From Colwellia psychrerythraea 34H (GTDB lineage Bacteria; Pseudomonadota; Gammaproteobacteria; Enterobacterales; Alteromonadaceae), in contig NC_003910.7 of NCBI RefSeq assembly GCF_000012325.1, forward strand, positions 1,736,001 through 1,800,000: DNA of 64,000 nt, written 5' to 3'. The notes under the pieces were generated by a model. The model had not been told where the DNA came from. It searched no databases and worked only from the letters and a program-made list of their open reading frames with translations. Position numbers and translations under genes: made by a program. Of this stretch, positions 12,616 to 15,866 are shown in pieces; position 1 is the stretch's first letter, and each line of letters starts with the position of its first letter.

Positions 12616-13857
12616 TTATGCTGCATTATTTGCTTGATTAATATTGGTAACTTTATCGCTGCTTGGCAGTTTCACTTTTTCCAAAGCTTGGGTTAAATCA
12701 CTGATAATATCATCGACATTCTCTAAACCTACAGAGATTCTAATTAAACTATCACTGATGCCCGCATCTGCTCTTTCTTCGGGGGTATAAGGCGAGTGTG
12801 TCATTGACGCAGGGTGTTGAATTAATGACTCTGCATCACCTAAGCTGACGGCAATTGAAAAAAGCTCCATTGCATCAATAAAGGTTTTTCCACCCGTCAA
12901 GTCGGTATTTAATTCAAAAGCAATTACACCACCTGCGGCTTTCATTTGATTACCCACAAACTTGTTCCCAGAGTGACTTTTAAGACCAGGATAGTAAACT
13001 TCATCAACCATAGGGTGTTGTTCTAAAAACTCTGCGACTGTTTGTGCATTGCTACAATGTCTATCCATTCGAATCGGCAAAGTTTTAAGGCCGCGCATAA
13101 TCAACCAAGCATCATGAGGACTTATGGTGGCACCGATATCTTTAAGGGTCGTCATTTTTATTTCGTTGATCATTTCAAAATTAGCACAGACGACACCGGC
13201 GACAACATCACCATGACCATTAAGGTATTTAGTTGCACTATGCACCACAATATCAGCACCAAATTTTGCAGGCTGTTGTAATACAGGGGTAAGGAAAGTA
13301 TTGTCTACTATTGATAATAAGTTGTGCGCTTTGGCAATGGCGCAAATTTTTTCCAAATCTAATACCACTAAGTTTGGATTGATGGGGGTTTCTAAAAAGA
13401 CTAACTTAGTATTTTCTTTGATGGCTGCTTTGATATTGTCAGGCTCAGTCATATCGACAAACGTCACCTCGATATTAAACTTCTTCAGCATGTGATTCAT
13501 TAGCGCGAATGAGCAACCATAAACAGCTTTAGATGAAATCATATGATCGCCAGCTTGCAAGTTAGTCAGTAACGCTGCTGAGACAGCAGCCATACCTGTT
13601 GCGGTTGCAGCTGCATCATCCATGCATTCCATAGCCGCAACGCGCTGTTCTAATTGGCGAGTTGTTGGGTTACCTAAGCGCGTGTAAATATAACCTTCGC
13701 TTTCACCGGCAAAACGGTCGCCACCTTGCTGAGCATTATCAAAGATGAACGTAGATGTTTGATATAAAGGCGTAGCAAGCGAGCCAAACTGTGTATCATT
13801 AATTCTGCCGGCATGAATAGCGTTAGTTTCAATATTTTTGCTCTTAAATTGGGTCAT
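12616..13857 (-). CDS. megL: methionine gamma-lyase (PLP enzyme)
   Basis: 413 aa. Splits L-methionine into methanethiol, 2-oxobutanoate and ammonia. It belongs to the Cys/Met metabolism PLP family. The PLP-binding lysine lies in VVHSATKYLNGHGD (about 208-221). YTRLGNPTTRQLE holds the Tyr and Arg that contact the neighbouring subunit's PLP. The active-site YGCSFA (about 115) keeps the Cys that marks true methionine gamma-lyases, where sulfhydrylases and cystathionine enzymes usually differ. SLGDAESLIQHPASMTHSPYTPEER closely follows the Pseudomonas enzyme. O-succinylhomoserine sulfhydrylase is the main alternative. A sigma-54 promoter and TyrR-type boxes lie upstream. Confidence 0.85.
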   Translation of the reverse strand: MTQFKSKNIETNAIHAGRINDTQFGSLATPLYQTSTFIFDNAQQGGDRFAGESEGYIYTRLGNPTTRQLEQRVAAMECMDDAAATATGMAAVSAALLTNLQAGDHMISSKAVYGCSFALMNHMLKKFNIEVTFVDMTEPDNIKAAIKENTKLVFLETPINPNLVVLDLEKICAIAKAHNLLSIVDNTFLTPVLQQPAKFGADIVVHSATKYLNGHGDVVAGVVCANFEMINEIKMTTLKDIGATISPHDAWLIMRGLKTLPIRMDRHCSNAQTVAEFLEQHPMVDEVYYPGLKSHSGNKFVGNQMKAAGGVIAFELNTDLTGGKTFIDAMELFSIAVSLGDAESLIQHPASMTHSPYTPEERADAGISDSLIRISVGLENVDDIISDLTQALEKVKLPSSDKVTNINQANNAA

Positions 13858-13906
13858 AGTTTCTCTTCTATAAGTTGTAATTATTATTATGCTTTATTTG
13901 ATGGAG

Positions 13907-13985
13907 GAAACATGGGTTTCAGTGATATAGACAGAATGATTTGTTGCAGCTATATCACTAAGCAGCCATGTAGAACTCATGTTTC
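13907..13985 (-). promoter_or_regulatory. structured 5' leader of the methionine gamma-lyase mRNA
   Basis: Within the roughly 170-nt leader (if transcription starts near 14028), AGTGATATAG (13921-13930) pairs perfectly with CTATATCACT (13950-13959). Around it, GAAACATG (13907-13914) can pair with CATGTTTC (13978-13985). Alternatively ACATGG (13910-13915) can pair with CCATGT (13966-13971); the two choices exclude each other. It matches no SAM-riboswitch consensus that I recognise. An operator dyad is the alternative. Confidence 0.45.
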
Positions 13986-14037
13986 TTCTTAATCTATTGA
14001 TTTCTTCATTCTTTCATTTATTCTTTATTTACTAGCC

Positions 14038-14053
14038 TGCAACTATGTTGCCA
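14038..14053 (-). promoter_or_regulatory. sigma-54 (-24/-12) promoter of the methionine gamma-lyase gene
   Basis: On the minus strand the sequence is TGGCAACATAGTTGCA, against the consensus TGGCACRNNNNTTGCW. The invariant GG and GC are present with exactly ten bases between them. Predicted start of transcription is near 14028, giving a leader of about 170 nt. Confidence 0.6.
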
Positions 14054-14115
14054 ACTAAATAAAACGTTTATTTAACAAGTAGATACAGGCTTTTTAAAAT
14101 AAACTTAATAATACT

Positions 14116-14133
14116 TGTACTAAAATAATTACA
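14116..14133. promoter_or_regulatory. TyrR-type box 1
   Basis: TGTACTAAAATAATTACA fits the dyad TGTAAA-N6-TTTACA at 9 of 12 half-site positions. It is centred about 97 bases upstream of the predicted sigma-54 transcription start, a typical enhancer distance. Confidence 0.5.
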
Positions 14134-14206
14134 AAATGATAGTGTGTTTTCCTATTGCATCCTCGAAGCACTAGTTATTCACTGTTTTAATGGGATAAAT
14201 ACAGCT

Positions 14207-14224
14207 TGTACTAATTTTATTACT
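14207..14224. promoter_or_regulatory. TyrR-type box 2
   Basis: TGTACTAATTTTATTACT is a weaker match to TGTAAA-N6-TTTACA. It shares the TGTACTAA left half with box 1 and is centred about 188 bases from the predicted mgl start. Confidence 0.4.
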
Positions 14225-14225
14225 G

Positions 14226-14243
14226 TGTAATATTTGTAGTACA
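14226..14243. promoter_or_regulatory. TyrR-type box 3
   Basis: TGTAATATTTGTAGTACA has the outer TGTA and TACA of the TyrR dyad with the right spacing. It is one base from box 2 and 24 bases before the regulator's start codon, so it may also serve autoregulation. Confidence 0.45.
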
Positions 14244-14267
14244 CTATATCTGTAGATGTGTCATCTT

Positions 14268-15866
14268 ATGCGTGTTGTTATTGAATCAAGCGATAGAATA
14301 GGTATTTCCCAAGAAATATTAGCTATATTTGCCAAGCAAGCTTGGAATTTAAAAACCGTAGAAATTACCAGCTGTTTTACCTATGTGCATGTTGAATATG
14401 CTGCGTTAACGCTTTCGTCAATTAGAGAATGCTTAGCCTCAGTTATTGGCGTTAACAGTGTAGAGGTGATTAATTTATTACCTAGTGAACAACGAGAGAG
14501 TCATTTACAAGCCTTATTAGATAAAATGCCTGAGCCTATTATCGATGTTGATAGTAATGGACTAATTTTGGCTATGAACAAGGCAAGTCATAAGCTTAAG
14601 CCGTCAAAGGATGCAACTGAGCCTGAGTTGGTTACAACGGATTACTTGGGCAAGCCAATCGAAGCGTTTCTTGGGCAAATTAATAAAACTATGCTCACCA
14701 ATGCCGCTACCAGCCAAGCCGTGACTATTGAAGGGAGGGCCTACATTCTTGATGTAAGTCCCGTAATATCAAGTAACAGTTCAACCTTAGAACAAGACAA
14801 TACTGGGCAAGTAAGTGGCTCAGTGCTACTTTTTCGCTCAATGAATACCCTAGGGCGTCAAATTTCATTAATGCAAAGTCATCAAGATCACAGTTTTGAT
14901 AGCATTATTGGTCAATCAAAAAGTATCAGTTTAATTAAGGCGCAAAGTAAACGTTTTGCGGAATTAGATTTACCGGTATTAATCAGTGGTGAAACCGGTA
15001 CAGGTAAAGAGTTAATCGCTCGAGCATTACATCAAGCGAGCTCAAGATCTAAAGCGCCTTTTTTAGCGATAAACTGCTCAGCACTACCTGAACATTTATT
15101 AGAAAGTGAGCTATTTGGTTATGCTAGTGGCGCATTTACGGGGGCCCAAAAAGGCGGTAAACCTGGATTAATTGAACTAGCTGAAGGTGGCTGTTTATTT
15201 TTAGATGAAATTGCAGAAATGTCACCGTATTTACAAGCAAAATTGTTACGATTTTTACAAGATCTCACTTATCGTCGTGTTGGTGGTACTAAAGAACTGG
15301 TTGCTAATATACGTATTGTCAGTGCCAGTCACCAAGACTTAGCCAAACTCATTAGTCAGAAAACCTTTCGAGAAGATCTTTATTATCGCTTAAATGTGCT
15401 GAGTATCGATTTACCACCACTAAGAGAGCGTATGGCAGACATGAGTCTCTTGGCTAACTTGTTTATTGAAAATGCGGCTAAACAAGTCAGTAACAGTCAA
15501 CAAACAGATATTGCAAAGCCAAAACTTACTGCACAAGCACTTAGTTTATTACAGGGATTCGCTTGGCCAGGAAATATTAGGCAACTACAAAATGTTTTAT
15601 TCAGTGTTGTTGCTTTGAATAATGGCGGTGATATTTGTGCTGATGACTTGTTACAAGTCCTCAATAAGCATGCTGGTAAACAACAGCTTAGTAATGATAT
15701 AGATATTCAAACAATTAAAGATTGGTCTAGTGCTCAAGCTGATTTTGAAGCTAAATTACTTGAACATCTCCATCCGTTATTTCCGACAACACGAAAATTG
15801 GCTGAGCGTTTAAATGTCTCACACAATAAAATAGCGATGAAACTAAGAGAACATGGCATAAAATAA
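14268..15866 (+). CDS. TyrR-like sigma-54 transcriptional activator (ACT-PAS-AAA+-Fis)
   Basis: 532 aa from the ATG at 14268, which gives the TyrR-like N-terminus MRVVIESSDRIGISQEIL; an ATG four codons earlier is possible. Domains: ACT (about 1-70), PAS (about 78-165), AAA+ (about 205-440) with Walker A GETGTGKE and Walker B GCLFLDEI, and a Fis-type HTH (about 490-530, TTRKLAERLNVSHNKIAMKL). The sigma-54 contact loop GAFTGA is intact (about 288-293), unlike in E. coli TyrR, so it should activate sigma-54 promoters. It is divergent from the methionine gamma-lyase gene. Its ligand may be an amino acid bound by the ACT domain; which one is unknown. Confidence 0.85.
   Translation: MRVVIESSDRIGISQEILAIFAKQAWNLKTVEITSCFTYVHVEYAALTLSSIRECLASVIGVNSVEVINLLPSEQRESHLQALLDKMPEPIIDVDSNGLILAMNKASHKLKPSKDATEPELVTTDYLGKPIEAFLGQINKTMLTNAATSQAVTIEGRAYILDVSPVISSNSSTLEQDNTGQVSGSVLLFRSMNTLGRQISLMQSHQDHSFDSIIGQSKSISLIKAQSKRFAELDLPVLISGETGTGKELIARALHQASSRSKAPFLAINCSALPEHLLESELFGYASGAFTGAQKGGKPGLIELAEGGCLFLDEIAEMSPYLQAKLLRFLQDLTYRRVGGTKELVANIRIVSASHQDLAKLISQKTFREDLYYRLNVLSIDLPPLRERMADMSLLANLFIENAAKQVSNSQQTDIAKPKLTAQALSLLQGFAWPGNIRQLQNVLFSVVALNNGGDICADDLLQVLNKHAGKQQLSNDIDIQTIKDWSSAQADFEAKLLEHLHPLFPTTRKLAERLNVSHNKIAMKLREHGIK

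Follow-up and report, generated by a model that had tools for sequence, protein, structure and literature searches.

The region examined here is a 64,000 nucleotide stretch of the 5,373,180 base genome of Colwellia psychrerythraea 34H (contig NC_003910.7, forward strand positions 1,736,001 to 1,800,000), termed the window, in which coordinates are counted from the first nucleotide. At positions 12616..13857 on the minus strand is found mgl, which encodes a 413 amino acid (aa) methionine gamma-lyase. The sequence scores 574.8 bits against TIGR01328, above the cut-off of 549.7, and its best matches in the PDB are methionine gamma-lyases, with YGC retained in both alignments displayed. On the plus strand, and divergent from mgl, is an open reading frame at 14256-15866 for a TyrR-like sigma-54 enhancer-binding protein. 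The frame gives 536 aa from 14256, however a start at the ATG at 14268 is favoured by the orthologue start positions (14268..15866, 532 aa). The two genes share one gap. Sigma-54 control of mgl by the TyrR-like activator is strongly supported by sequence comparison, i.e. by the conserved pairing of the two genes, the GAFTGA loop, a -24/-12 promoter assessed with matched controls, the enhancer boxes and a spacing that changes in helical steps. Methanethiol is released by methionine gamma-lyase. It is listed among the volatile sulfur compounds relevant to atmosphere and climate (PMC10819757), and the locus offers a testable control circuit for a methanethiol-releasing enzyme in a marine-type bacterial family.

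The regulator displays an AAA+ sigma-54 activation domain (PF00158, E-value = 2e-66, 223 bits against a cut-off of 20.2) and a C-terminal helix-turn-helix (HTH) motif, PF18024, which at 26.5 bits is slightly below the cut-off of 27. Neither an ACT nor a PAS domain is detected in it by Pfam. However, a phmmer search matches residues 5–201 (536 aa form) with 2jhe, the solved N-terminal fragment of TyrR, with an E-value of 2.5e-10, and this points indirectly to an ACT+PAS-type sensor region at 14268..14858 (plus strand). Thus of the ACT, PAS, AAA+ and Fis domains in the original prediction, the AAA+ domain is found outright, the HTH narrowly misses its threshold, and ACT and PAS are reached only by way of 2jhe. 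The GAFTGA loop had been read as intact, and it is, at 15129..15146 on the plus strand. A search of 196 genomes of the family shows 68 places with 442 bits or more, the next match being at 360; these are taken as close orthologues and are present in 65 of the 196 genomes. Their loops read GAFTGA in 59 places, GAFSGA in 7, and GAYTGA and GAFTDA in one each. The recognition helix of the HTH, SHNKIAMKLR, is at 15819..15848 (plus strand). It has the form SHNK[IV]A[MIL]K in 63 of the 65 mgl-paired orthologues, and SHTA[IV]ANK in the canonical TyrRs read.

The make-up of the protein, with the 2jhe match, the AAA+ domain and the HTH slightly below its cut-off, is that of the TyrR-like superfamily, which includes TyrR, PhhR, and GcsR. 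The score against the TyrR equivalog model NF008085 (NCBIfam) is 415.6 bits and the cut-off is 576. In a quick tree of 62 proteins, which has open forks, the mgl regulators and three second paralogues form a group of their own (Shimodaira-Hasegawa-like approximate likelihood ratio test, SH-aLRT, 99), apart from a TyrR and PhhR group (98). GcsR groups with alpha- and betaproteobacterial relatives (99). Since the regulator stands in a separate tree group and does not reach the NF008085 cut-off, it is by sequence a TyrR-like sigma-54 activator and not TyrR. The window genome also has a canonical TyrR (locus L002), 37% identical and without GAFTGA, whose neighbours we take to be phhA- and phhB-like genes and a gene of the fumarylacetoacetate hydrolase family. 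A TyrR that regained GAFTGA was considered as the origin of the mgl regulator and is not favoured, as the regulator belongs to a separate tree group. There is one match for rpoN in the genome and one ihfA above its cut-off.

The gap contains a -24/-12 sigma-54 promoter of mgl, TGGCAACATAGTTGCA, at 14038..14053 on the minus strand, exact at these coordinates. The transcription start is predicted at 14027 (minus strand), 12 base pairs (bp) from the C of the -12 element, by promoter numbering. The proximal box TGTACTAAAATAATTACA at 14116..14133 is an exact dyad centred at approximately -97, with 62 bp between it and the -24 element. Farther upstream are two boxes in tandem: TGTACTAATTTTATTACT at 14207..14224, which has one mismatch (TACT for TACA) and is placed 19 bp from the next, and TGTAATATTTGTAGTACA at 14226..14243, an exact dyad 24 bp upstream of the regulator ATG that is possibly autoregulatory as well. 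No strand is assigned to the boxes. The original prediction of three TyrR-type dyads, with centres at -97, -188, and -207, was accurate in the positions of promoter and boxes, but only two of the dyads are exact. It included neither an integration host factor (IHF)-type site, nor the second, canonical TyrR without GAFTGA, nor the difference between the boxes and the canonical TyrR box. The IHF-type site, TATCTACTTGTTA at 14073..14085 on the minus strand, is degenerate, with two mismatches to YAANNNNTTGATW. It is placed 19 bp upstream of -24, with the proximal box 30 bp away. The IHF consensus used for scoring is WATCAANNNNTTR.

Among 20,000 exact dinucleotide shuffles of the gap, 9 contain a sigma-54 site equal to or better than the one present and 8 contain at least two exact TGTA-N10-TACA dyads; none contains an equally good sigma-54 site together with at least one exact dyad. 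Exact shuffles were used for this gap and for the loci L069 and L079 below; the sigma-54, dyad and IHF-type counts over sets of loci were assessed by first-order resampling, at most 100 per set. The sigma-54 consensus used for scoring is similar to the one given in PMC6615313.

Pairing with mgl is a constant property of the regulator in the family. In 65 of the 68 places a gap of 223–631 bases separates the regulator from mgl on the opposite strand, and the remaining three places represent second copies, their genomes having the regulator-mgl pair as well; all 65 genomes with a close orthologue therefore keep the divergent arrangement. A sigma-54 site is significant (p ≤ 0.05) on the mgl strand in 63 of the 65 gaps, spanning 20 genera, versus 9 of 65 on the other strand. 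A further 59 genomes of the family carry mgl (E-value of 1e-120 or better) without the regulator, which brings the genomes with mgl to 124. From these, 40 genes served as controls, leaving out G156, which is incomplete, and 18 at 47–61% identity; the control regions are 400 bases long. A sigma-54 site at the 0.05 level is found in 5 of the 40, and an exact dyad also in 5 of the 40. The sequences show both the conservation of pair and promoter in relatives and the scarcity of the promoter at mgl genes that lack the activator as a neighbour.

Escherichia coli TyrR has lost the GAFTGA loop and is reported to be sigma-70-dependent (PMC3162934), and in the PhhR-like loci L148, L149, L151, and L156 the loop reads GAFEGA. 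By extension the present regulator could be a sigma-70-type TyrR-like repressor or activator, with the -24/-12 site a relic or a chance occurrence. This is highly improbable in view of GAFTGA or GAFSGA in 66 of 68 places, the sigma-54 sites of the 63 gaps, and the 35 of 40 mgl genes without the regulator that show no such site at 0.05. In addition, a promoter scan of the mgl strand over 13850-14280 gives no sigma-70-like match. Sigma-54 control is the reading followed below. The superfamily provides a comparative case of regulators that keep or lose sigma-54 dependence, the canonical TyrRs here being without the loop.

Ten of the 40 control mgl genes have another activator-domain match (170–193 bits) within approximately 3 kb upstream (L099, L109, L112, L113, L128-L132, L135); these were not counted as the mgl regulator. 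In L107, PspA/PspC-like open reading frames are found upstream of mgl, from which a PspF-like gene is a guess.

When the order was searched (295 genomes, family members included), one orthologue was found outside the family at 1e-110. It is in G270 (locus L237) and is divergent to mgl, with TGGCAAGCTTTATGCT in the gap and a dyad 62 bp away. At L237 1190-1503 the boxes are of another type, TGTTAC/GTAACA, and the recognition helix is SNATISRK, yet the mgl pairing and the 62 bp gap are present. The pair is also found in Colwellia maritima (L138), where 62 bp separate a dyad from TGGCAGTTAAATTGCT and an IHF-type site with one mismatch is placed at 19 bp. At L138 2010-3177 the C. maritima mgl matches in three separate pieces, which indicates either a frame-broken gene or an assembly error.

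An unbiased count of gapped 4-mer palindromes in the 65 gaps places GTAA-N8-TTAC first (54 of 65 gaps, 0.7 expected) and TGTA-N10-TACA second (51 of 65, 1.0 expected). The half-sites of the 85 exact dyads in these gaps show A at position 5 in 81% and C in 15%, and T at position 6 in 91%. The box of the mgl regulator, as read from these sequences, is TGTAATN6ATTACA. It is distinct from the canonical TyrR box, quoted as TGTAAA-N6-TTTACA in PMC4894688, from which it departs by the T at position 6. Tandem dyads, with no more than one mismatch each and 17–21 bp apart, are present in 40 of the 65 gaps, in 31 of them at 19 bp. There are a few cases where the recognition helix differs. L075 (SHAKIARK) and the second paralogues L069 and L073 (SHTRISRK) have TGTATC-type distal boxes, however the promoter-nearest dyads in L069 and L073 are of the CGT(A/C)AT type, unlike their distal boxes. 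It is suggestive that recognition helix and box sequence change together, the cases being few and mixed.

A broad regulon in the window genome was considered and rejected. A genome search with the box alone shows 15 palindromic places, two of them at the mgl gap, and the reversed control pattern shows 46, so the pattern is not enriched. Of the other 13 places, the two looked at (L084, L086) display no evident link. Box and promoter in combination are found at mgl and at one other place, which is presumably the end of a cysteine-desulfurase-like gene. The regulator would form part of a dedicated catabolic switch, probably with one main target.

The spacing of box and promoter was scored in 63 of the 65 loci, L066 and L077 being excluded because in neither does a box reach 7 bits within 130 bp. 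Proximal box and -24 are separated by 49–51 bp in 10 loci, 61–64 in 44, 71–74 in 8, and 104 in one, so the window gap of 62 bp belongs to the commonest class. Genera g1, g8, g9, g28, and g52 each contain more than one spacing class, and at least 11 changes of class are needed on the tree, itself a quick tree with open forks. The gaps carry the IHF-type sequence YAANNNNTTGATW, exact in 16 of 63 (resampled mean 0.4) and within one mismatch in 48 of 63 (resampled mean 6.5, and never more than 14 over 100 trials). Searched in the opposite orientation, or as the reversed pattern, the sequence has in either case no exact match and 6 of 63 within one mismatch, no excess over resampled sequences, and the 40 control mgl genes give none exact and 8 within one mismatch (resampled 0.4 and 6.9). 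With the best site taken per locus, 47 of the 48 sites stand 17–19 bp from -24. In these 47, the distance from box to IHF-type site is 19–21 bp (5 loci), 30–32 (37), 40–42 (4), or 72 (1), which is about 10.4 bp per step. As measured on the sequences, these distances are close to whole helical turns. The stepwise spacing makes a geometry rule for enhancer, IHF site and promoter visible in genomes. Four loci fall outside this pattern: L001 has a one-mismatch match 4 bp from -24 and a two-mismatch site at the usual position, L068 has only a two-mismatch match 3 bp from -24, and L014 and L015 have none. L051 fits with two mismatches at 29 bp.

Two of the three boxes in the window adjoin the start of the regulator gene, and the window genome contains at least 18 further activator-domain matches (20 matches in all). 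The boxes might then serve only to autoregulate the TyrR-like gene, and the mgl promoter, real as it is, might be served by another activator. This explanation is highly improbable, since the spacing of the proximal box to the mgl promoter is kept in steps and the pair is kept in every one of the 65 genomes. Activation of mgl from the adjoining gap by the TyrR-like protein is preferred.

Second paralogues of the regulator (G029, G073, G143; L069 2746-3004, L073, and L079 4524-4766) are divergent to other genes and stand beside a sigma-54-like site. In L069 the divergent gene is E1-type 2-oxoacid dehydrogenase-like (its match to the aceE model is far below the cut-off), and in L079 it is a DSBA-like thioredoxin gene. 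The sigma-54 scores give p = 0.003 in L069 and 0.034 in L079 (shuffles), and an exact IHF-type site is found 18–19 bp from -24 in all three loci. The regulator of L075, though paired with mgl, groups with the second paralogues (96) inside the mgl regulator group. It is plausible that the dehydrogenase-like product in L069 would use the 2-oxobutyrate made by methionine gamma-lyase; the Pseudomonas putida MdeB, presumably a 2-oxobutyrate dehydrogenase E1, was used only as a hint here.

The same arrangement appears in part in more distant branches. Six Pseudomonas loci were assigned to the GcsR type by the tree and by a gcvH-like neighbour recognised in L140. Four have a clear promoter and none is clear in L141 and L143. 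Of the four, L140, L144, and L145 carry an exact IHF-type site at a distance of 19 bp from -24, unlike L142, and each of the four carries a box-like dyad at 64–65 bp. At the betaproteobacterial locus L147 an IHF-type site with one mismatch precedes -24 by 19 bp; the pattern is not seen at L146, nor at L139, where no IHF-type site was found. The L139 relative adjoins a gene which we take to be D-amino-acid-dehydrogenase-like. The main text of the GcsR paper contains no mention of "IHF" or "integration host factor" (PMC4894688). TyrR-type sigma-54 activators of the mgl, E1-dehydrogenase and glycine-cleavage branches may share an ancestral geometry, with IHF 17–19 bp from -24 and the box free to shift only by whole turns of the helix (to approximately 20, 31, 41 or 72 bp from the IHF site). 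This reading is slightly favoured; it is weakened by the mixed link of helix and box and by the lack at L237 of an IHF-type site within one mismatch. If true, evolution would have run a phasing experiment many times over at these loci, and unnamed TyrR-like members could have their targets and ligands sought by means of the geometry.

Several further observations weigh, like that at L237, against the proposed arrangement. At the usual distance there is no strong box in L066 or L077, and the scored boxes are weak (7.7–10.3 bits) in L063, L064, L070, L071, and L075. The sigma-54 scores of L052 and L070 are equalled by 7–9% of resampled sequences. The IHF-type site of the window occupies the same position as the conserved site of the relatives but fits the geometry only at two mismatches, and is weak and hence uncertain. 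No IHF-type site within two mismatches is found in the close relatives L014 and L015. The genome search for box with promoter proves nothing alone, as the reversed control also gives two places.

Taken together, the TyrR-like activator very probably drives mgl from the adjoining gap as a sigma-54 switch. In the mechanism proposed, sigma-54 RNA polymerase would wait as a closed complex at 14038-14053, and the activator made from the divergent gene would bind the 18 bp TGTAATN6ATTACA boxes, chiefly using the proximal box at about -97 as enhancer. Further dimers may be contributed by the distal tandem pair, which, being just upstream of the activator gene, may also autoregulate. IHF would bend the DNA between enhancer and promoter, where in relatives the distance from its site to -24 is nearly fixed. 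Binding of a ligand by the ACT/PAS part would then allow the AAA+ ring to contact sigma-54 through GAFTGA and open the promoter with ATP. We infer activator binding, activation, sigma-54 dependence, IHF bending and the ligand; for enhancer binding, IHF-assisted looping and GAFTGA-driven opening the model is GcsR, a relative of similar layout that was no longer active in an E. coli rpoN mutant (PMC4894688).

The ligand is probably methionine or a methionine-derived product, the likeliest choice because mgl is the one clear target and because glycine, to which GcsR responds, is the substrate of the GcsR target (PMC4894688). The same switch could instead respond to an aromatic or other general amino acid, placing mgl in a general catabolic response of the kind predicted for Shewanella TyrR. 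The regulator is related to TyrR, and in Shewanellaceae TyrR is predicted to govern mdeA together with aromatic and branched-chain catabolism (PMC5343134). Genus g37 also shows an association of mgl with TyrR. In all seven g37 loci retrieved (L097, L107, L108, L111, L117, L119, L120), a canonical-type TyrR gene without GAFTGA is found approximately 1 kb downstream of mgl, and in L107, the only one of these loci read, mgl is followed by a phenylalanine hydroxylase family gene and then by tyrR. All five exact dyads among the 40 control genes are from this genus: the boxes before mgl are the canonical TGTAAA-N6-TTTACA in L107, L111, and L120, other exact TGTA-N10-TACA dyads in two loci, and one-mismatch dyads in two. 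A sigma-54 site at 0.05 is present in only one of the seven. In g37, mgl may have passed to TyrR control. In the window genome, however, a separate canonical TyrR is present near the phhA/phhB-like genes, no clear further target of the mgl regulator was found (the searches were not exhaustive), and the box differs from that of TyrR. With these findings and the precedent of GcsR, an aromatic or general amino acid ligand appears unlikely and the methionine-type ligand is preferred.

The mgl leader (window 13890-13999) has an inverted repeat, AGTGATATAG/CTATATCACT, present as a single copy in the genome. The leader has no match to a known RNA in Rfam, and the stability of the repeat is barely above that of shuffles (z = -1.16, 29 of 200 as good).

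Methionine catabolism had been put forward as a new use of this regulator family, which is too strong in view of four precedents. One is GcsR of Pseudomonas aeruginosa, described with an ACT-PAS-AAA+-HTH order, an RpoN-dependent reporter, three 18 bp TyrR-like boxes and an adjacent catabolic target (PMC4894688). The mgl regulator falls outside the GcsR class, as the GcsR target is the gcvH (glycine cleavage) operon, its box is TGTAACG-N4-CGTTCCG, and its tree group is separate. In Azospirillum brasilense, TyrR has GAFTGA, and TyrR boxes and a -24/-12 promoter are reported in the tyrR-dadA gap, again for amino acid catabolism, but the substrate is D-alanine and the lineage alphaproteobacterial (PMC6375630). 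In the Clostridiales MdeR-mdeA-metT system, mdeA is predicted to be under sigma-54 control through an enhancer-binding protein whose box is a TGT/ACA inverted repeat (PMC6615313). The system differs in being from Firmicutes and in an operon with a transporter, and the likeness drawn here is one of target and sigma factor. In Shewanellaceae a TyrR family member is predicted to control mdeA, but this is TyrR itself with a broad regulon, and the available part of the source mentions no sigma-54 mechanism (PMC5343134); in some Shewanella, MetR is the predicted regulator of mdeA (PMC4239095). Canonical TyrR, as in L002, shares the domain order and the TGTA-N10-TACA core of the box with the mgl regulator, and differs in the lack of GAFTGA, in the full box (PMC4894688) and in tree group. 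Among the open-access literature matches listed, no description was recognised of the regulator or of sigma-54 control of mgl in this family. The comparison offers a suggestion of the way in which methionine came under a known regulator family, and of the way in which the spacing of enhancers is kept to whole turns of the helix.

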